NCBI GenBank assembly: GCA_035549195.1
Contig: DASZRK010000018.1
Coordinates: 1-64,000, forward strand
Direction of reading: 5' to 3'
Source of the DNA: a bacterium
Lineage (GTDB): Bacteria; Oederibacteriota; Muellerivitia; Muellerivitales; Muellerivitaceae
Length of the DNA: 64,000 bases
In this document: in pieces, positions 37,722 to 49,487 of the stretch
Position numbering within the stretch: the first letter of the stretch is position 1
Layout: each line of letters starts with the position of its first letter
Notes under the pieces: generated by a model
What the model was told of the DNA's origin: nothing
Databases searched by the model: none
The model's input: the letters and a program-made list of their open reading frames with translations, nothing else
Translations under genes and position numbers: made by a program

Positions 37722-40700
37722 CTAGGCCGTCGAAGAGGGGACGCCCTGTTGTTTCTCCCGGGTGTCCAGGACTTCCCGGACCTTCACCAACAACTCTTGG
37801 ACCTTATAGGGTTTCGGCAGGAAGTCGAATTTGTCCTTCTGGAGCCCATGCTCGAAGACGGCATGGTCCGCGTGGCCGCTGATGAAAAGCACCGGCATGT
37901 GCGGGAAGCGTTCACGGACCATCTCGGCCAGAGCGGGACCGCTGAGGGACGGCATGACCACGTCGGAGACCAAGAGCTGGATGGACGGGCCGTGCTCGTC
38001 CAGGACCCGAAGGGCGTCGTGGCCCGACGAGGCGCTCAGGACCCGGTAGCCGTTGTCCGTCAGGGCCCGGGAGGCCAGGCGACGCAGGGATTCCTCGTCC
38101 TCCACCAAAAGGATCAATTCGTTCCGGGCATGCCCGGGCTCCGGGGCGGGAGCCTTTTCACGGACCGGACCCGCGCTTGAGGCCGCCGCGGGGAAGTAGA
38201 GCAGGAAAGAGGTCCCGCGGCCCGGAATGCTGTCGATGGCGATATGGCCGCCGCTCTGCTGGACGATGCCATAGACCATGGCCATTCCCAGGCCGGTCCC
38301 CTTGCCCGCTTCCTTGGTGGTGAAGAAGGGCTCGAAAATCCGGGCTTGTACCTCGGGGGTCATCCCGGTCCCCGTGTCCCGGACCGTGAGCAGTACATGG
38401 TCCCCGGGGACCGCCCCCGGATAGAGGCGGCAATGGTCCTCGTCCAGCCGGACCCTCGAGGTGGACAGATAAAGGCCCCCTCCCTTGGGCATGGCGTCCC
38501 GGGCGTTGACGGCCAGGTTGAGGATGGCTTGTTCCATCTGTCCGGGATCGGCCTTGCAATGGACCGGGGCGGGCGAGAGGTCCGTGGAGACGTGGATGTC
38601 CTCCCCGATGACGCGCTTGAGCATCTTCAGCACGTTCTCCACGCTCTGGTTCAGGTCCAGGACCACGGGTTGGATCACCTGTTTGCGGCTGAAGGTGAGC
38701 AATTGCCGGGTCAAGCCGGCGGCCTTCTCGGAGATGGTCAGGATCTGTTCCAGGTCGTGGCGCCGCGGGTCCTGGGGGTCCATCTCGCCCTTCAGGAGGT
38801 CGGCGTATCCCATGATGGCCGACAGCATGTTGTTGAAATCGTGGGCGATGCCACCCGCCAGGTGTCCCACGGCCTCCATCTTCTGGGCCTGTTGGAACTG
38901 CTGTTCCAGGCGTCTGCGGTCGCCCTCCGATTCCCGGCGGTCGATGGAGATGCGTAGCATCCCGGCGATGGAATCGATGAGGTTACGCTCTTCCCGGAGG
39001 AAGGGCCCTTCGGACTCGGGCGGCCTTGGCTCGAGGTAAGCCACCTCGATGGTGCCTTCCTTCCCCCGGGAGGTGGTGAAACGGCTTTCCTGGACCCAGG
39101 ACGACCGCCGGAAGCCCGGGGTGGCATATTCCACGTCCCCCAGGCGGATCCGGGCCTCGGTCACTTCCGGATACTGCCAGGCGGGAGGGAGAAGGCGGCA
39201 GACCTCCCGGATCCAATCGGCGTTGGTGAGTTCCTCGTCGCGGAGCACCTCCGCGGCGCTTTTCAGGCAGGTCAGTTCCTTCACCCTTTCACCCAGGTCG
39301 TGCATGAGCTGGGTATTTTCCGCCCGGACCCTGCATTTCTCGATGGCCACCCCGGCCAGGTGAGTGGCCCGCTGGATGAGCATCTGGTCCTCCGGACCGG
39401 GCAGGCGCGGTTCCTTGTAATACATGGCGAAGGTCCCGAGGACCTTGCCTTGGGCGTCCCGGATGGGGGTGGACCAACAGGCCCGGAGGCCAAAGGGCTC
39501 CACCCAATCCCTGTATTTTTCCCAGAGCGGGTCGGTCTGGATGTCCTGGGTGATGACCGGTTTTCCAAGGTGGACGGCGGTGCCGCAGGAGCCGGCCTGG
39601 GGGCCGATGGGCTCTTTCAGGATGGCTTGGCAATAGACCTCCGGCAAACTGGGGGCGGCGATGCGCTCGAAACGGGTCCCGTCGGGCGTGAGCAGGAGGA
39701 TGGAGCCCGTCATGTCCTTGGAGATGGCCTCGATGCCGCGGACCATGGCATCCAGGACCTCGGGCATGGAACTTCCGGAGGCGATCATCTCCAAAAGGCG
39801 CGTTTCTTCCGCCATGAGGATGTCCTGGTATTTGCGTTCGGTGGTGTCCAACGCGATGCCCAGGACCTTGAGGGTGTCGCCCTCGGGGCCCTTCAGGGGG
39901 CGGCCGAGGAACCAGAGGTCGCGCTCGATCCCGTCCTTGCGCACGATGCGGCACTCGAAGCCGGCGTCGTCGCCTTCCCGGGCGACCCGGGCCATGGCGG
40001 CCCTCAGGCGGTCCCGGTCCTGGGGATGACAGAAGGCCATCAGGGTCTCGACCCGCCCGTCGAATTCGGACAGCTTGATGCCATGGATGCGGGCCAACTC
40101 CTCGGACCATTTGAAGGTCCCGGAGCCCAGGTCCCATTCCCAGCTCCCCACATGGGCGGCCTCCTGGGCCAGGCGCAGGAAGGTCTCGCTTTGCCGCAGG
40201 GCCTCCTCGGAGGCCAGCCGCTGGGTGGCGTCCCAATTGATGCCCACGATCCGGAGCGGGACACCGTTCCCGTCCCGCAGGACCTGTCCCATGCCGCGGA
40301 TAGTGCGACGGGCGCCGCTCTTTAGACGCACCCGGAACTCGGTGTTAAAGGGCCTTTCCCCGCGGATGGCCGCCCGCAGGTCCGAATCGGCGCGGATGAA
40401 ATCGTCCGGGTCCACCAGGCGGGCCCAGGCCTGGAAGTTCGCCTTGAAACCCTCGGCCGGAAGATCGTAGAGGCGGAACATGGCCTCATCCCAGGTGAGC
40501 TTGTCCTCCACGATGTCCCAGTCCCAGATGGCCAGGTCCCCCGCCTTGAGGGCGACCTCCAGGCGGTTGCGGCCCAGTTCCAACTCCTCCTCGCGTTCCT
40601 TGCGGGTCCGCACTTCCGCCCTGAGCTGCCCGATGGATTCGGAGAGGCGGTCGGCCATGAGGTTGAAGGAGTCGGACAGGTCGTTGAGTTCCTCCAGGCG

Positions 40701-42194
40701 GCTCCCGGACATCCGTTGGGACAGGTCCCCCCGGGCCAGGGCCTGGGTGGCCAGGGAAAGGCGCCGAAGCCCGCTGGTCATCAAGGTGCCCAGGAAAATG
40801 GCCAGGCCCAGGCCTGAAAGCAAGGCGACGGCGGAGATCATGGCGGAGCGGCTATTGCCTTCCGCCACCCCCGCCAGGTAATAGGACTCGGGCATCAAGG
40901 TGACCAACAACCAATCCCGGTGGCCCCCCCGGCGGTCCTGATAGGCAATGGCCCTTCCGAGCCAGGTGACCCGGTCCAGGGGTTTCTCGGTGACATGGTC
41001 GAAATGGAAAAGAACGCCGTCCTGCAGGGCGCCCAGGTCCTGGTGGGCGGCATCGAGGCTTTCCAGGGCGTGGGTTTGGACCCCATCGGGGTCGGGGGAA
41101 GAGGAGGCAACGATCCTTCCGTCGCGGCCCACGACAAGGGCGATGCCGTGCTTGGCCACGGGCAGTTTCCGGAGGAGTTCCCCGATGCCCTGTTCCGGGT
41201 CGTCGCCCTTGGGAACATGGTCCAAATAATCGTCCAGGCTCAGGTCGATCCCTTTGGAGATCTCTTCGTGGAGCCGGCCTGCCAGCTTGTAAGCGTCCTC
41301 CCGGGCGCTCTTCAAGGTGACATAGGCGGTGGCCCCGACCATCACCAGGATCAGGGACAGGAAGGGCGCCAGCACGACCAGCCTTATGGGCAGTCCTTGC
41401 GGGCCTTGCCCGATCGGAGCGCCCCCGGAGGTCCAGGCCCACTCCCGGGATCCGAGTCGCCGTTCCCGGACATGGCCGGGGATATCGGCCCAGAACATCC
41501 CCAGTTTCCGGACCAGCGGAAAGGCCGCCAACATGGCGAAGGGTGCGATCAGCCAGGTGATGGAGGTGGTGAAGGCGAGGGCCGAGGTGATGTTGCGGTA
41601 GGAGATCTCCGGGGTGAATTTGCCGGCGCAGATGTGGCCCCAAAGAACGGGTTCGAAGACCATGAAAGAGGCCAGGAAGAGAAGATAAAGGCCCCAGGTC
41701 CGGGCCTTGCGGAAATCGGGATCCTTGCCGAAAAGCTGGTAGGCCACCCAGAAACAGGTGGGATTGATGAAATAACCCGGCAACCAGTCCATCAAGAAGG
41801 AGGGCGGCACGCCTTCGATGAGGTCGGAGAGCCCATAGGCAAAGGGGACGGTCAAGAGGGCGGGATAGCCGAAAAGGACCACACAGAGGAAGACCGTCAG
41901 GTCCTTCAAGGACTCGAAGGTCTGGGCGCCCGGCACCAGCACGATGAAGGAACCGATATAACCGGTCAGGACGATGAGCAGGAAGGTCAGCGGGATGGAA
42001 AGAAGGGCCTTGGTATCCCAGGCCTGGTGTTCCCGGCCCAGGCCCCAGTGGCCCCCGGGACGGAAGGTGAAGCCGCCGAAGGCGGCCAAGGCCAGGGCGA
42101 AGCCGATGATGAAAGCCAATTGGCCCCAGACCGCCAGGAGGGGAAGGGGCAGGGAAGCGAAGAGATCTTCCAGCGAGCGGAGGGCAAGGTTCAT
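37722..42194 (-). CDS. Hybrid sensor histidine kinase with membrane, PAS, GAF and receiver domains
   Basis: 1490 residues from the ATG at 42194 (GGGG upstream). Order: an N-terminal block of about eight membrane segments (1-260); an extracytoplasmic Cache-like domain between two further membrane segments (about 275-465); HAMP (about 470-525); two PAS domains (about 540-790, including [20 protein letters not shown] and [10 protein letters not shown]); two GAF-like domains (about 790-1085); HisKA with [20 protein letters not shown] (His about 1117); HATPase with [20 protein letters not shown]; and a receiver with LLVSDVVMP (Asp about 1409) and KPY. All catalytic motifs are present. It should sense several inputs. 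No separate output regulator is adjacent. Confidence 0.9.
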
Positions 42195-42342
42195 AGGGCC
42201 CCTTGGGTATAGGTCGGCCGAATATAGATGAGAGGCGCCGGAAGGCCCGGTCGCGGCCATGGATCGGAACGGCCCGGCCATTATCCGTCCAGGCCCTTGG
42301 TCCCGGAACAAAAATGGGCGGGAAGGGCCTCCACATCCCCCG

Positions 42343-42351
42343 TGCTATACT
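42343..42351 (+). promoter_or_regulatory. Extended -10 promoter
   Basis: TGCTATACT: a TATACT -10 box preceded by TG, 37 nt before the ATG at 42388. No good -35 box is seen, as expected for extended -10 promoters. It would drive the barrel-protein gene, divergent from the hybrid kinase. Confidence 0.5.
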
Positions 42352-42387
42352 TTCCCGGTCCCATCAGCCCGGCTTTTCAGGAAGATC

Positions 42388-43794
42388 ATGAAGCCATCGA
42401 ACCCGTTTTTCGCCTTACTTTCGGCCTTTTTTTCGTTCCTTCTTTTTCCACCGGTTCTTTCCGCTTCCCAGACCCGGGTGGCCGCCACGGGGGGATTGGG
42501 CACCCTGCTCGAGGACGAGACCGCCGACCTGAACCTTTACCTGGACGGTAATCCCGCCGGGCTCCTCTACCTGAACACCAAGGACCGGCTCGACCTGTCG
42601 GGGGAATGGTCCTCCAGCGATCAGGAGGGTCCTTGGGGTTCGGAGAGGACCACGGTCCTGAGCAGTTTCCCCAACGCCCTCGAGACCATTCCTTCCTATG
42701 GAGGGGTCATGGTCTTCCCGGACCCCCATTGGGCTTTCCAGGCCTCGGGTGGAGTCCTCTCCCGGCAAGGTTTTTCCGCTCCCGATCTTCTGGCCGATGA
42801 CCAGGACCTGACGCGATACCTGGGGATATTACGGGGAAGCTACGCGGCACCCTTTGCCTGCTTGGGGATGGAACTGGCCGGCATCCAAACGGACAAGTCC
42901 TATGCCTTGGGTTCCTATGATCCGGATGATCAAGTGCTTGCCGGTTCCAGCGCACAAGGGTCCACCCGTTTGAAGCTGGGTGTGGCCGCCACCTTTCCGG
43001 ACCGTTACACCGCCGACCAGACCCGGTTCCGGGTAGGGGTCCTTTGGGGAACCTCATTGGGTGATCCGGCCGAGACCAGGACTTTCCGGATCGAACCCCT
43101 GTCGCCGCCCGCCATCGGTGTGACCCAGGTCTGGGCCACCCGCGGTTCCGTGGAATGGGGAGGGGAGGCCACGATGGAGGTCCCGGGGATCCTGAAGATG
43201 ATGTTGGACGTCCATGAGGAGGATGCTTCGATGGAAATGACGCAGACCTCCACCGCCCCCGTAACCCTTACCACTTCCGGGCCCGCTCCCCCTTTCCGGA
43301 CCGGGAACCTGGGAGTGGATTGGAACTTCAAATGGACCGTGGCCGGTCTCGAGACCGAGGACCTGAAGCTGGGCGGAGGTCTTTCTTATTTTCGCGACTC
43401 CACCACCGATGCGAATTCAGCCCCGGGTCCCTACGAGGAATTCGCGACCCGCTTAGGGGTGGGATTGGACTCTCCCCGGGACCATCTGGTGGGCGTTCAA
43501 TGGACAGGGATCCGGACCTTGAGCGGCTTGGACCGTTCCCAGATCGCCTTCGGCGGGGAAAAGTGGATCTCGTCGACCTGGGCCTTGCGGTTGGGATTGA
43601 CCGGGGAGATCGACCATTCCGATGGCGCTTCCTATGAGACCTTGGACACGGTCCTGGACATGGGGGCTGGTTTGCAGGAGGTCTTCGGCCGGGTGGACCT
43701 GCGCCTGCGCCTGGGCCAGACGGTCAATATGAGCGATTCCTCCGACACGATCGGCCTGATGGAAGGTCAGGTCTCCGGGACCCTCTTCATTTGA
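42388..43794 (+). CDS. Putative outer-membrane beta-barrel protein
   Basis: 468 residues from the ATG at 42388. A signal peptide ends near FPPVLSAS. Alternating strands run through the whole length with many Gly/aromatic turns (LRLGLTGEIDHSDGASYETL, VDLRLRLGQTVNMSD), ending in TLFI. The N-terminal part (RVAATGGLGTLLEDETADLN, LYLDGNPAGL) resembles the start of surface or porin-like proteins in related candidate phyla. No family is recognised. It precedes the TonB receptor gene by 174 nt. Confidence 0.6.
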   Translation: MKPSNPFFALLSAFFSFLLFPPVLSASQTRVAATGGLGTLLEDETADLNLYLDGNPAGLLYLNTKDRLDLSGEWSSSDQEGPWGSERTTVLSSFPNALETIPSYGGVMVFPDPHWAFQASGGVLSRQGFSAPDLLADDQDLTRYLGILRGSYAAPFACLGMELAGIQTDKSYALGSYDPDDQVLAGSSAQGSTRLKLGVAATFPDRYTADQTRFRVGVLWGTSLGDPAETRTFRIEPLSPPAIGVTQVWATRGSVEWGGEATMEVPGILKMMLDVHEEDASMEMTQTSTAPVTLTTSGPAPPFRTGNLGVDWNFKWTVAGLETEDLKLGGGLSYFRDSTTDANSAPGPYEEFATRLGVGLDSPRDHLVGVQWTGIRTLSGLDRSQIAFGGEKWISSTWALRLGLTGEIDHSDGASYETLDTVLDMGAGLQEVFGRVDLRLRLGQTVNMSDSSDTIGLMEGQVSGTLFI

Positions 43795-43968
43795 TCATCT
43801 GATTCGTCTGCTTTTCCTTCAAAAGGCCGGACCTTCTCCACTTAAAGGCTTTTCTTTATGTTGAAAAGCTGTCCCCGGGGCTCGGAAAGTCTTTCCGTTT
43901 GTTATGATTGTTAGCCGAACGGATCCGGCAAAACCGGGCGTTAAAATAGCGGGGTATGGAGGTCTTCT

Positions 43969-46167
43969 ATGAACAAGTCCTATTTCGCCGGTGGAATAGG
44001 TCCATTATTTTTCACGTTCATCCTCTCCCTTGGATGGTCCTTTCCCCATCCTGCCCAGGCTAAAAAGGCACAACCCACCTCCCAAACCGCCGTGAACGAG
44101 GACGACGACGCGGATGGGGGAACCACCGCTCCCGATCTTTCCCAAATGAGCCTGGAGAAATTGGCCGACCTGGACGTTACCGTGACCTCCTCGGCCAAGA
44201 AGTCCGAATCCCTCCGTGACGCGACCTCCGCGATCTATGTCATCACGGCCGAGGACATCCGGCGCAGTTCGGCCCGGACCTTGCCCGATCTTCTCGCCAT
44301 GGTGCCGGGGGTGCAAGTGGCCCGGCAGTCGGGCAACGAGTGGGCCATCAGCGCCCGTGGGTTCAACTCCCAATACAACAACAAGATGCTGGTGCTGGTG
44401 GACGGCCGCAACGTCTATGACCCCACCTTCGGCAAGGTGAAGTGGAACGAATTGGACCTGTTCCTGCCCGACATCGAGCGCATCGAGGTCATCCGGGGTC
44501 CGGGCGGCACCCTTTGGGGCTGCAACGCGGTCAACGGGATCGTGAACATCATCACCAAGGATTCCAAGAGCACCCAGGGCACCTATCTTTCCACCTTGGC
44601 CGGCCTCGACCTCTATGGCTCCCGGCCCGATCCTCGCATCATGGACAGTCGGCTCCTGATCCGTTATGGAGGAGCGCTGGCCGCCAATACCAATTACCGG
44701 ATCTATGGCCAATTCTCCAGCGAGGCCCCTTCCATCAACCCCAAGGTGGATCCCTATGAGGATGACTTGGGCCCTTTTTGGAACGACAGTTGGTACGATT
44801 TCCGCGTGGGGGGACGTCTGGATTGGCGCAACGCCACCGATCAGGTGACATGGGAAAGTGAATTCCAAAAGGGCCATTTCGACTACGCCCGGCTCACGAC
44901 CGCGGTCGACAGTTTGTTCGACCCCACGACCTTCCAGGACATCAACGACCTCAATACGGAGATCGACCAGAACGCCCATCTTTTGTTGCGGTGGACCCGG
45001 GATTATTCCGATGGCTCCGAACTGCAGACCTTGGCCACCTACGATTACCACAACCTCACCTACACCAACGACCCGAGGGTCGAGAACCTGGGGCAGTTCG
45101 AGCTCCAGTTCCAGCACCGGTTCCTCCTAGGGTCCTGGAACGAGATCACCTATGGGGGGAATTACCGGAACTATTCCGACCAATTCCTGAACCCCCTTTA
45201 TTTTTTCTATTCACCGGACAACCTGACCTTGGACATCTATGGAGGCTATCTCCAGGACCGATTGACCTTGTTGGAAGGGCGGCTCTTCTTCACCGGAGGG
45301 GTGAAACTGGAAAGCAATTCCTTCACGGGCGGGGAATGGCAGCCTTCGGGACGCCTCCTTTTCACCCCGGACGACAAGAACAGCCTTTGGGTGGCGGTAT
45401 CCAAGGCGGTCCGCATCCCGGTGCAGGTCGGGACCAACTTGACGATCTATTTCGGCGGGATCCCGGCGGATGGTATCGGGCCTGGGACCCCCCCGGTGAA
45501 CACCTATGGCGCCTTCATCCCCAACCAGGATCTGAACGTGGAGAACTTGATCTCCTATGAATTCGGCTATCGGACCAATCCTACGAAAGAAACCTCCCTG
45601 GACCTGGCCCTCTTCTTCAACGACTACACCGACCTTTTTCGCTTCGTCCCGGTCAACGGCACCTACCCTTCCCCCGCCGGAGGAGTGATCGATAGTTCCT
45701 ATTTGCCGGTGGTCCAGCCCCAGAACGGCGGTAAGGGCGCCATCTATGGCCTGGAGCTCGCGGGGGAATGGAAACCGATGAAGTCCTTGAAATTCATGGC
45801 GGCCTACACCTACCAGGATTATGACCAGAACATGGTGGCCGCCTCCAATATCGAAACGGGCGCACCCCCTCCCCACCACCTGGCCAATGGACGTGTCTAT
45901 TTCGATCCCTTGCCCGACTGGGAACTGAACAGCGCGCTCTATTTCACCGACACCACCACCCTCTACGACCTGTTGGACAATACCCATGTGGTGCCGGCCT
46001 ATTGCCGGTGGGACCTGGGATTGGCCTGGAAAAGCCCGGAGGGGATGCGTTTCGAGATCGGCGCCACGGACCTGGAAGGGGGCTACAAGGAGACCCTTCC
46101 TTCGGCTTTCGTGGACCCCGTCCAGGTGGCGACCTCCCTTTACACCCGTTGGAGCCTCGAATTTTAG
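43969..46167 (+). CDS. TonB-dependent outer-membrane receptor
   Basis: 732 residues with GGAGG before the ATG and a signal peptide of about 31. The plug domain spans about 60-185: VTVTSSAKKSESLRDATSAI, YVITAEDIRRSSARTLPDLL, RIEVIRGPGGTLWGCNAVNG and IVNIITKDS. The barrel follows, ending in YTRWSLEF with terminal Phe. An Asp-rich stretch (NEDDDADGG, about 44-52) precedes the plug. The substrate is unknown; siderophore, cobalamin and glycans are possible. It leads an operon with YfiR-like, kinase and regulator genes (gaps 8, 3 and -4 nt), so uptake or surface sensing may feed the signalling pair. Confidence 0.9.
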   Translation: MNKSYFAGGIGPLFFTFILSLGWSFPHPAQAKKAQPTSQTAVNEDDDADGGTTAPDLSQMSLEKLADLDVTVTSSAKKSESLRDATSAIYVITAEDIRRSSARTLPDLLAMVPGVQVARQSGNEWAISARGFNSQYNNKMLVLVDGRNVYDPTFGKVKWNELDLFLPDIERIEVIRGPGGTLWGCNAVNGIVNIITKDSKSTQGTYLSTLAGLDLYGSRPDPRIMDSRLLIRYGGALAANTNYRIYGQFSSEAPSINPKVDPYEDDLGPFWNDSWYDFRVGGRLDWRNATDQVTWESEFQKGHFDYARLTTAVDSLFDPTTFQDINDLNTEIDQNAHLLLRWTRDYSDGSELQTLATYDYHNLTYTNDPRVENLGQFELQFQHRFLLGSWNEITYGGNYRNYSDQFLNPLYFFYSPDNLTLDIYGGYLQDRLTLLEGRLFFTGGVKLESNSFTGGEWQPSGRLLFTPDDKNSLWVAVSKAVRIPVQVGTNLTIYFGGIPADGIGPGTPPVNTYGAFIPNQDLNVENLISYEFGYRTNPTKETSLDLALFFNDYTDLFRFVPVNGTYPSPAGGVIDSSYLPVVQPQNGGKGAIYGLELAGEWKPMKSLKFMAAYTYQDYDQNMVAASNIETGAPPPHHLANGRVYFDPLPDWELNSALYFTDTTTLYDLLDNTHVVPAYCRWDLGLAWKSPEGMRFEIGATDLEGGYKETLPSAFVDPVQVATSLYTRWSLEF

Positions 46168-46175
46168 GAGCGGTT

Positions 46176-46739
46176 TTGACCCGAAAAAGCCTGATCCTTA
46201 TCTTCCTTTTGGCTTTCCTGACCGGGCCCTTGGGGCTCCGCGCGGAATCTTCCCGGGCGGTGGACCCTTATGAGCTGGAAGCGGCCTATTTGGTCCATTT
46301 CCTTGAGTTCGTGGGTTGGCCCGAAAGTGCCTTCGCCGACCCTAAATCCCCTTATGTGATCGGGGTACTGGGGGAAGACCCGTTCGGGGAGAAGCTCTCC
46401 CGCCTGACCTCCGGCCGCCTTTTCAACGGAAGGACCGTGATCATCAAGAAATTCGGGGGATATGACCCGGAGGAAGGGGATGACCTTCGGGCCTGCCATG
46501 TCCTGTTCGTGGCGGGGTCCGAAAAAGATCGCTTGCCCATCATCCTCAAGATCCTCAGGCGGGCGCCCGTCCTGACCGTATCCGAGATCGAAAAATTCCC
46601 CCTCTATGGGGGCATCCTGGCCTTCGACCAGGAGGGCAAGAAGATAAGGCTCTATGTCAATCCCAAGGCCGCCAAAGGCGCCCAACTCCAGTTCAGCGCC
46701 AGGCTCCTGCAGGTCTGCCGGACCTACGGGGACGACTGA
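46176..46739 (+). CDS. YfiR-family periplasmic protein
   Basis: 187 residues from a TTG at 46176, chosen because AGGAG at 46166-46170, which overlaps the receptor's stop codon, is 5 nt before it. A signal peptide is followed by the YfiR pattern: DPYELEAAYLVHFLEFVGWP, YVIGVLGEDPFGEKL, RTVIIKKF, CHVLFVAGSEKDRLP, VLTVSEIEKFPLYGGILAFD and RLYVNPKAAKGAQLQFSARL. In Pseudomonas, YfiR binds and represses the diguanylate cyclase YfiN in the periplasm. Here the next gene is a histidine kinase with the matching sensor type. Confidence 0.85.
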   Translation: MTRKSLILIFLLAFLTGPLGLRAESSRAVDPYELEAAYLVHFLEFVGWPESAFADPKSPYVIGVLGEDPFGEKLSRLTSGRLFNGRTVIIKKFGGYDPEEGDDLRACHVLFVAGSEKDRLPIILKILRRAPVLTVSEIEKFPLYGGILAFDQEGKKIRLYVNPKAAKGAQLQFSARLLQVCRTYGDD

Positions 46740-46742
46740 ACC

Positions 46743-48146
46743 ATGGCCTGGAACTTCAAGGACCTGGCCCTCAAGCGGAAGATATTCCTCATCGCGGTGG
46801 CCTCCAGCACCCTTTCCCTGGCCCTGGCCTCCTGTCTCATCCTCCTGAACGAGCGTCTGACCTTCCCGGGCATCCTGGAAAAGCAGCTCTTGAACCTCGC
46901 CACCCTGGTGGGGGACAACTGCACGGCGGCCCTGACCTTCAATGACGAAAAGACGGCGCAGGAGGTGGTCAGCACGCTCCACAACAACCCCCATATCCTG
47001 GAAGCGGTCCTTTACGACAACCGGGGCCGGGTCGTCGCCTGGTTCCCGCAGACCGGGACGCCTCCCGCCGTCCCGGCCAGACCCTTGCGGGAAGGGATCT
47101 GGATGGACCGGGACAAGGCCTGGCTCTATCACTATGTCCTGGCCGGGCCCGAACGGCTGGGGACCCTCTACCTGGTCTCCGACATGCAGGAGATGAACAG
47201 CCGGCTCCTCAATACCGCCATGGCGACCGGCGTCGTTCTGGTGGTCTCCCTGCTTCTGTCGGCCCTGGTGGCCGACCGGCTCCAACGGCGGGTGACCGAG
47301 CCGCTCCAACAGGTGGTCGAGAAGATGAAGGGCATCGCCATGGGCGAAGGGAACCTTTCGGAGCGCCTGGAGGTGGATGGCCGGGACGAGATCGGGCAAG
47401 TGGCGGAATCCTTCAACACCTTCGTGCACAAGCTCCAGACGGTGGATGAGATGAAACAGAACCTCATCTCGGTCGTTTCCCACCAGCTGAAGACGCCGGT
47501 GGCCGAGATCAACGGCTATATCGAGAACATGTTGGACGGGCTCTCGGGCGAATTGGCGCCCCGGCAACGGCGCTACCTGGAGGAGATGCGGGAGATCGGG
47601 CTGGAGAACTACCGGATGATCTGCGATCTGCTGAGCGTTTCGAAGATCGAAAGGGGCGTCATCGCGATCACCGCGAAGGAGGTCCCGCCCCGACGCTTGG
47701 TGGAACTGGCCATCCGGGACTACGAGACCTCCATCCGGCGCAAGGGCTTGAAATTGGTGCTGGAGGGGCTGGACCTGGACGTCCGGGTGCTCGCGGACCA
47801 GGACAAAACCGTTGAAACCCTCCGGAATCTGATGAACAATTCCTTGAAGTTCACCGATCAAGGTTCGATCACGGTCCGCGTCCTGGACCAGGGCGCCGAG
47901 GTCGCCTTGGAGGTGGAGGACACGGGCCTCGGGATGTCCCCCACCACACTGGAGAGCCTCTTCACCAAGAACCGGGTGTTGGGCGCCGAAGCCTCCCGGG
48001 CCGGGGCCGGCCTGGGCCTCTTCATCGCCAAGCGTTTCATGAAGCTCCAGGGAGGGGATGTGACCGTCACGTCCCGGCTGGGAAAGGGAAGCTGTTTCCG
48101 GGTCACGATCCCCAAGGCCACGGGACAGGAAGGGATGGGAACATGA
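46743..48146 (+). CDS. Sensor histidine kinase with CHASE8-like periplasmic domain
   Basis: 467 residues. TM1 about 14-36; a periplasmic domain (about 40-150) with ALTFNDEKTAQEVVSTLHNN and PHILEAVLYDNRGRVVAWFP, the CHASE8 pattern also found in YfiN; TM2 about 160-178; HAMP (about 180-232); HisKA with VVSHQLKTPVAEINGYIENM (His about 246); HATPase with LRNLMNNSLKFTDQGSI, VEDTGLGMS and GAGLGLFIAKRFM. It should phosphorylate the receiver protein encoded by the next gene, whose start overlaps its stop by 4 nt. YfiR next door is the likely periplasmic modulator. Confidence 0.9.
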   Translation: MAWNFKDLALKRKIFLIAVASSTLSLALASCLILLNERLTFPGILEKQLLNLATLVGDNCTAALTFNDEKTAQEVVSTLHNNPHILEAVLYDNRGRVVAWFPQTGTPPAVPARPLREGIWMDRDKAWLYHYVLAGPERLGTLYLVSDMQEMNSRLLNTAMATGVVLVVSLLLSALVADRLQRRVTEPLQQVVEKMKGIAMGEGNLSERLEVDGRDEIGQVAESFNTFVHKLQTVDEMKQNLISVVSHQLKTPVAEINGYIENMLDGLSGELAPRQRRYLEEMREIGLENYRMICDLLSVSKIERGVIAITAKEVPPRRLVELAIRDYETSIRRKGLKLVLEGLDLDVRVLADQDKTVETLRNLMNNSLKFTDQGSITVRVLDQGAEVALEVEDTGLGMSPTTLESLFTKNRVLGAEASRAGAGLGLFIAKRFMKLQGGDVTVTSRLGKGSCFRVTIPKATGQEGMGT

Positions 48147-48736
48147 CCAGCCAGAACTTGATCCTGATCGTGGAGGACCAACCGGGTTTCCGGCGCATCT
48201 ACGAGGATGTCCTGTCCGATGCGGGTTACGAAGTGGTGGTAGCGGAGGACGGGGAAAAGGGCTGGCAGATGATCCGGGACCGCAAGCCCAACCTGGTCCT
48301 GCTGGACCTGGGGCTTCCCAAGATGGACGGTTTCGAGGTGCTGAAGCGCATCCGGGAGGACGAGGCCACCCGGTCCATTCCCATCATCATTTTTTCGGTC
48401 ATGGGCGACGAGAAGGACATCAAGAAGGCCATGGATATGGGGGCCAACGACTACACCATCAAGGGTTTCTACACTCCCCGCCAGATCCTCAGCAAGGTGA
48501 AGAACCTGGTCCAGACCAGCGAGGTCGGGCCCTCCGAGACCTCCTTCAAGCTGATGGTCGATCCTTCGGGCGCCGATGCGGTCAAGGTCGGGCAGATCCT
48601 CAGCTTAGGCAAGGATAACCAGTGCCCGGCCTGCGCGGTTTCCGTCCGGTTGGAGGTCTTCCCCGACGCCGCCCCTGGCGGCGAGCATTGGTTCCGGGCC
48701 CGCTGGTCCTGCCCTCAATGCGGGAAGATCTTCTAA
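48143..48736 (+). CDS. Response regulator with C-terminal zinc-ribbon-like extension
   Basis: 197 residues. Receiver domain about 1-125 with Glu11/Asp12, Asp55 in LVLLDLGLPKMDG, switch Ser85 and Lys107 (IKGF). There is no DNA-binding or enzymatic output. Instead the tail (about 135-197) has two Cys pairs, Cys161/Cys164 in NQCPACA and Cys190/Cys193 in WSCPQCGK, as in a zinc ribbon. Output is probably protein-protein or nucleic-acid binding. Co-translated with the kinase gene. Confidence 0.85.
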   Translation: MTSQNLILIVEDQPGFRRIYEDVLSDAGYEVVVAEDGEKGWQMIRDRKPNLVLLDLGLPKMDGFEVLKRIREDEATRSIPIIIFSVMGDEKDIKKAMDMGANDYTIKGFYTPRQILSKVKNLVQTSEVGPSETSFKLMVDPSGADAVKVGQILSLGKDNQCPACAVSVRLEVFPDAAPGGEHWFRARWSCPQCGKIF

Positions 48737-48860
48737 CAAGATGGCCGGGAATTGGCGCGGATCTTCGCGAATTAAAACCTGAAGATAAAAGTCATTCGGG
48801 CCTGGGTCGGCTTTTTGAATCCGCGCTCATTTGCGTAAATTTGCGGCCGAAGCTTTGCCG

Positions 48861-49487
48861 TTATGCCGTCCATTTGGCCGTGAACTTCGGCGCGAAGGCG
48901 TAGTTCAACTGGACCAACACGATGAAGGCGATGCTCCAGGCGGTCCCAAAAACACAGAGCGCGGCCCCGAAGGCGTAGTAGGCCTGGGCCACCAGGACCC
49001 GCCGCCGTACCGCATGGTAGACCCCTTCGGTGCTCTTCCTCCCCAGCAGGTTGGCCCGGCAGGCGTAGCTCCAACTGGCCAGGATCACGACCCCCAACAG
49101 CAGGATGTTCAGCCAATAGAACAGGAGGGCCGATCGCAGGTGGATATGGGAGGCGAGCAGGGCGGTGGAGAAGGGGACGACCGCCACCAGGGCCAGGAAG
49201 GCCAGGTTGATCCAGGTGAAGTCCCGGTCGGCCCGGACCAATTGGTTCAACTGGGTTTGTTGGCCCACCCAAAAGATGCCAAGGGTCAGGAAGCTCATCA
49301 GGAAGGTCACGAAGCGGGGAAAAAGGGCGAGCAGTATCCCCGCCAATTCTCCATCACCCGATAGGGTCCCTTCGGGAACTTTCAGGTCGAGGATCAAGAG
49401 CGTCATGGCGATGGCGAAAAGGCCGTCGGAAAGGGCGGCCAGGCGTTCGTGGTTCCCCCCGGCGATCTGGTTGTAGTGCTTGGCCAT
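48861..49487 (-). CDS. TMEM175-family (DUF1211) membrane protein, likely potassium channel
   Basis: 208 residues, six membrane segments. The N-terminal signature RLAALSDGLFAIAMTLLILD matches the RxxxFSDGxFAIA type of TMEM175 proteins; here the Phe before Ser is Leu. Bacterial TMEM175 proteins with one six-helix unit form tetrameric potassium channels. It starts 3 nt after the alpha-galactosidase gene ends, so they share a transcript, although no functional link is obvious. Confidence 0.8.
   Translation of the reverse strand: MAKHYNQIAGGNHERLAALSDGLFAIAMTLLILDLKVPEGTLSGDGELAGILLALFPRFVTFLMSFLTLGIFWVGQQTQLNQLVRADRDFTWINLAFLALVAVVPFSTALLASHIHLRSALLFYWLNILLLGVVILASWSYACRANLLGRKSTEGVYHAVRRRVLVAQAYYAFGAALCVFGTAWSIAFIVLVQLNYAFAPKFTAKWTA

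Follow-up and report, generated by a model that had tools for sequence, protein, structure and literature searches.

The closest described system is YfiBNR of Pseudomonas aeruginosa (the TpbB/DgcN system), in which YfiR is encoded next to YfiN, a protein with a periplasmic CHASE8/PAS sensor carrying an AAxxF motif, a HAMP domain and a GGDEF output, and which includes the OmpA/Pal-like lipoprotein YfiB. According to Malone et al. 2012 (PMC3375315), the YfiR-YfiN[PAS/HAMP] core is widespread and modular, and its outputs include sensor histidine kinases, HPt and MCP domains, and pairs of GGDEF and EAL. In their work YfiN makes the contact through its AAVVF motif and YfiR through a hydrophobic C-terminal patch, and most of their distant YfiR-YfiN operons lacked YfiB and mostly had no known outer-membrane partner. 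TonB receptors go unmentioned in the text of that paper, and our literature search found no study that treats YfiR, a TonB receptor and a kinase as one unit. NCBIfam already curates a linked trio, namely NF053590 (the TOL_0244 receptor), NF053591 (the TOL_0243 YfiR-like protein) and NF053592 (the YfiR-associated sensor kinase). A preliminary description of the present locus had proposed that YfiR control of CHASE8 sensors is modular; this is correct but not new, since the idea goes back more than ten years, to the 2012 work, which included histidine kinases and MCPs. The locus is a good example of a known system and not a new kind, and what this analysis adds is a multi-phylum survey, a coevolution test and the co-inheritance of the receptor.

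The window analysed is a 64,000-nucleotide stretch from the metagenome-assembled genome of a soil bacterium of candidate phylum FCPU426. Four same-strand ORFs between 43969 and 48736 form an operon encoding a TonB receptor, a YfiR-like protein, a CHASE8 histidine kinase and a receiver protein, separated by gaps of 8, 3 and -4 nt. Both this composition and these gaps had been given in the preliminary description; the ORF coordinates agree with it, and Pfam scores above cutoff back all four gene names. The window shares with YfiBNR the YfiR fold, a periplasmic CHASE8/PAS sensor with AAxxF, the HAMP domain and the adjacency of the genes. In contrast to YfiBNR, its sensor ends in HisKA and HATPase_c and is followed by a receiver, no YfiB ORF was recognised within 42259-49487, and a TonB receptor is encoded first. 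Assignment of the locus to YfiBNR itself was rejected on the absence of both the GGDEF output and YfiB. The window locus shares its histidine kinase output and its conserved interface residues with the divergent modules of Malone et al. 2012 (PMC3375315), and adds the receptor to that unit. Upstream of the cassette on the opposite strand (37722-42311, minus) lies a very large sensor protein, read from the sequence as several PAS-like segments, a GAF-like part, a histidine kinase core and a C-terminal receiver.

The first gene (43969..46167, plus strand) encodes a TonB-dependent outer-membrane receptor with Plug (85 bits) and TonB_dep_Rec beta-barrel (125 bits) matches in Pfam. Among 33 receptor models NF053590 was clearly the top match at 440.9 bits, under its curated cutoff of 645. 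Signalling receptors of the FecA/FpvA type carry an N-terminal STN domain and partner with an anti-sigma factor, whereas Pfam gave no STN match in the window receptor, and its adjacent partner is YfiR.

The YfiR-like periplasmic protein (46176..46739, plus strand) begins at a TTG codon preceded by AGGAG, ends with a TGA stop, and has an N-terminal signal peptide as judged by eye. It matched PF13689 (DUF4154, YfiR/HmsC-like) at 115.9 bits against a cutoff of 24.9, and NF053591 at 137.4 bits, above the curated cutoff of 125; the canonical YfiR equivalog NF053586 gave 12.9 bits and did not reach its curated cutoff of 85. Window YfiR is thus the one member of the NCBIfam trio to exceed its cutoff, while the receptor (441/645) and the kinase (163/194) fall below theirs, as expected from the remoteness of this phylum. 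A single-sequence search of the PDB with YfiR returned no match, whereas a profile-based search did. The predicted fold is close to that of P. aeruginosa YfiR in its crystal structures, with TM-scores on the target reaching 0.77, and also resembles, at lower scores, the small substrate-binding proteins 6k1x, 5z6v and 3lkv. Cys107 (window 46494-46496) is kept in 205 of 259 YfiR-like proteins, with no obvious disulfide partner conserved alongside it.

The third gene (46743..48146, plus strand, ATG start) encodes a membrane histidine kinase with the order TM1, periplasmic CHASE8 (residues 46-144), TM2, HAMP (180-232), HisKA (H247) and HATPase_c, all four domains being assigned by Pfam. The CHASE8 call made earlier from sequence was borne out by profile search, PF17152 scoring 48.7 bits over a cutoff of 27 between two transmembrane segments and ahead of HAMP. 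Searched against PDB sequences, the CHASE8 domain found no match of its own, hits being confined to HAMP regions. The kinase aligned with NF053592 over the whole model (162.9 bits, E 8e-48), and is related to that family though under the curated cutoff of 194.

The fourth gene (48143..48736, plus strand) starts at an ATG, overlaps the kinase gene by 4 nt and encodes a response regulator with a single receiver domain (Response_reg, 97 bits; D55 by alignment) and a C-terminal Cys4 zinc-ribbon-like tail with two CxxC motifs (window 48530-48733). Across 45 genomes of the phylum the tail was matched 18 times, always in members of the window's family (7 genomes). The window genome has two more copies, in tandem at another place (G000:C72:18189-19162). 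The tail matched no known family and does not reveal the output. Since no DNA-binding domain was detected in the protein, its output is likely protein-protein or allosteric. The locus encodes no HPt or second relay step. The earlier statement that the receptor is linked to a phosphorelay is therefore too strong in its second term, a histidine kinase with one receiver being a two-component pair; the receptor link is backed by conserved gene order and co-inheritance only.

The receptor-YfiR-CHASE8 cassette is a true, well-formed and widespread unit. In eight genomes of the window's family, all 14 YfiR copies lie beside a TonB receptor and all 11 CHASE8 domains lie beside YfiR, which excludes a chance neighbourhood; the remaining 3 of the 14 YfiR copies have a receptor without a CHASE8 sensor. 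The 80 loci examined in public genomes come from Verrucomicrobia, Acidobacteria, Gemmatimonadetes, Armatimonadota, Planctomycetota, Proteobacteria, Ignavibacteria and further groups. With the closest FCPU426 matches left out, 59 loci had both flanks present, and 46 of these carry a receptor upstream as well as a CHASE8 sensor downstream; a Pfam CHASE8 match was obtained in 54/54 sensors scanned. When genomes were sampled evenly from six phyla, 7 to 23% contained a TOL_0243-type YfiR. A neighbour survey, which the preliminary description had proposed, covered 153 uncut loci from six further phyla and placed a CHASE8 sensor beside YfiR at 139 of them. A TonB receptor is directly upstream at 113 of the 153, and in many cases its gene overlaps yfiR by 13 nt; about a quarter have no detected upstream receptor. 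A kinase output was recognised at 105 loci and a GGDEF-like motif at 2, and at 32 no output was recognised in the examined stretch. These loci were the best-scoring by the TOL_0243 model, so the counts describe the TOL_0243 branch and not all YfiR proteins.

Receptor distances track YfiR-CHASE8 distances at 53 loci (Mantel r 0.54, shuffle maximum 0.28). The correlation holds for pairs from different phyla (r = 0.49) and inside each of four groups tested (p <= 0.014). Because it extends across phyla, we conclude that the whole cassette, receptor included, is inherited together. The window cassette falls in the same FCPU426 group in both trees, and its receptor stands next to that of a cassette from the same family (L024, G030:C204, 4570-10528; support 90/97). 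In this sister cassette the TonB receptor shares 55% identity with that of the window and YfiR comes next; the CHASE8 protein ends in a methyl-accepting chemotaxis domain, and cheR- and cheD-like genes come after it, both as read by eye and motif. Within one family, then, closely related units of receptor, YfiR and CHASE8 serve a kinase in one case and a chemoreceptor in the other.

A second cassette in the window genome (L017, G000:C12, 785-6677) has its own receptor and YfiR, a longer CHASE8 kinase and small receiver proteins, and lies on another branch than the window cassette in both trees. At a further locus (L023, 7608-11867), two tandem TonB receptor genes precede a single yfiR-kinase-receiver set. 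Three TonB receptor-YfiR pairs without a nearby CHASE8 sensor (L027, G029:C8; L028, G029:C54; L029, G030:C92) have receptors that form a separate, distant clade in the receptor tree. By eye, the YfiR proteins of L027 and L029 have an extra C-terminal stretch resembling a TPR repeat.

Both elements of the published YfiR-YfiN contact recur in the window. In an alignment of 54 sensors, the counterpart of the YfiN motif AAVVF is AALTF at kinase residues 62-66 (46926..46940, plus strand). F66 is invariant in the 54 sensors, and 257 of 259 YfiR-sensor pairs have Phe at this position of what is more widely an AALxF motif. In YfiR, the residues aligned to P. aeruginosa positions 160/162/183 are I157, L159 and V180; these positions stay hydrophobic, and Phe predominates family-wide at 159. 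We then turned to mean-field DCA of the 259 YfiR-sensor pairs (Meff 242, about 280 columns), which recovered sensible intra-protein pairs, including L159-V180. The top inter-protein pairs (YfiR-sensor) include R176-T61, L171-N59, C181-T61, Q179-A62, R176-A62, Q179-T71, Q179-V75 and A175-T71. An interface rectangle (YfiR 145-183 by sensor 58-69) was set around the residues named in Malone 2012, its margins being drawn after the first listing, and it contains 5 of the 30 highest-ranking inter-protein pairs, as compared to a shuffle mean of 0.7-0.8 and maximum of 4. The top 30 averaged 4.15 sd in score, and no shuffle went above 3.56. Both comparisons use 169 shuffles, most of them restricted to clusters of similar sequences. 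A second rectangle (8/30 pairs, shuffle maximum 3) was chosen wholly after seeing the data and is set aside as evidence. Pseudo-likelihood DCA was under-converged, ranking the clade-level pairs A37-D68 and R81-D68 over interface pairs, and was not relied on. Conservation of the motif and the paired coevolution thus support a YfiR contact with CHASE8 sensors of this type, as far as sequence comparison can indicate.

Structure prediction, also proposed at the outset, was run with AF2 on a natural in-frame YfiR-kinase fusion in which one TGA was read as Trp. It confirmed the folds of YfiR and of the sensor domain (pLDDT 94 per residue), and the non-YfiR half resembles the periplasmic sensor domains of WalK, LapD-type and DctB proteins. 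The interface is not shown by this model, which is unusable as interface evidence because its pTM is 0.62 and it comes without inter-domain error values.

Taken with the gene order, domains, fold, motif conservation, interface coevolution and receptor co-inheritance observed here, the window locus is probably one copy of a widespread TonB receptor-YfiR-CHASE8 cassette in which YfiR binds the kinase and relays an outer-membrane signal. Secreted YfiR would, through its C-terminal part, bind the AALTF surface of the periplasmic CHASE8 domain, as YfiR does on YfiN, and would hold the kinase in one signalling state, presumably a repressed one. The amount of free YfiR would respond to an outer-membrane signal, for which the state of the first-encoded TonB receptor is a plausible candidate. 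This change would travel through TM2 and HAMP, reach H247 and then pass to D55 of the putative phosphotransfer partner, the receiver protein.

It is very improbable that the gene order merely reflects shared ancestry or hitch-hiking and that YfiR makes no contact with the kinase. Phylogeny does confound coevolution methods, and a Meff of about 240 is to be set against 280 columns; nonetheless, the couplings exceed those of within-cluster shuffles and map to an independently published interface, and F66 is nearly invariant. We also think it unlikely that YfiR is an activator or a ligand-carrying co-sensor, akin to a periplasmic binding protein, and not a sequestered repressor. The lower-scoring matches to substrate-binding proteins and the retention of Cys107 would suit such a role, and a cognate receptor is compatible with ligand delivery, but YfiR gives the best fold matches, and the couplings lie on the surface reported for YfiR repression of YfiN.

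The role of the receptor is more evenly poised, since by sequence it may act on YfiR, be under regulation by the kinase, or both. The chance is only a little short of even that the signalling pair consists of YfiR and the kinase, with the TonB receptor a co-regulated target or genomic companion that does not act on YfiR. Such a bystander is easier to reconcile with the lack of an STN domain, with the roughly one-quarter of loci at which no upstream receptor was detected, and with the distant YfiR-YfiN pairs of the 2012 survey, mostly without a known outer-membrane partner (PMC3375315), than with a receptor that is the first gene at most surveyed loci, often overlaps yfiR, and tracks YfiR-CHASE8 distances within and between phyla. 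The three receptor-YfiR pairs that stand without a CHASE8 sensor likewise suggest a direct relation between receptor and YfiR. More tentatively, and with the balance leaning somewhat against it, the TonB receptor may replace YfiB, its ligand- or TonB-dependent state capturing or releasing YfiR and so reporting nutrient uptake to the kinase or, in the sister cassette, to the chemoreceptor. If true, this would constitute a transducing receptor route that dispenses with both the STN domain and the anti-sigma factor.

For the cassette as reconstructed here, with YfiR relaying a signal from the outer membrane to the kinase, the TonB receptor, inherited with YfiR-CHASE8 across many phyla, is a specific candidate for the outer-membrane input to YfiR. 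Should the receptor act on YfiR, the cassette would represent a general uptake-sensing route, one that, if real, has been overlooked because the family has been studied mainly through YfiBNR in Proteobacteria.
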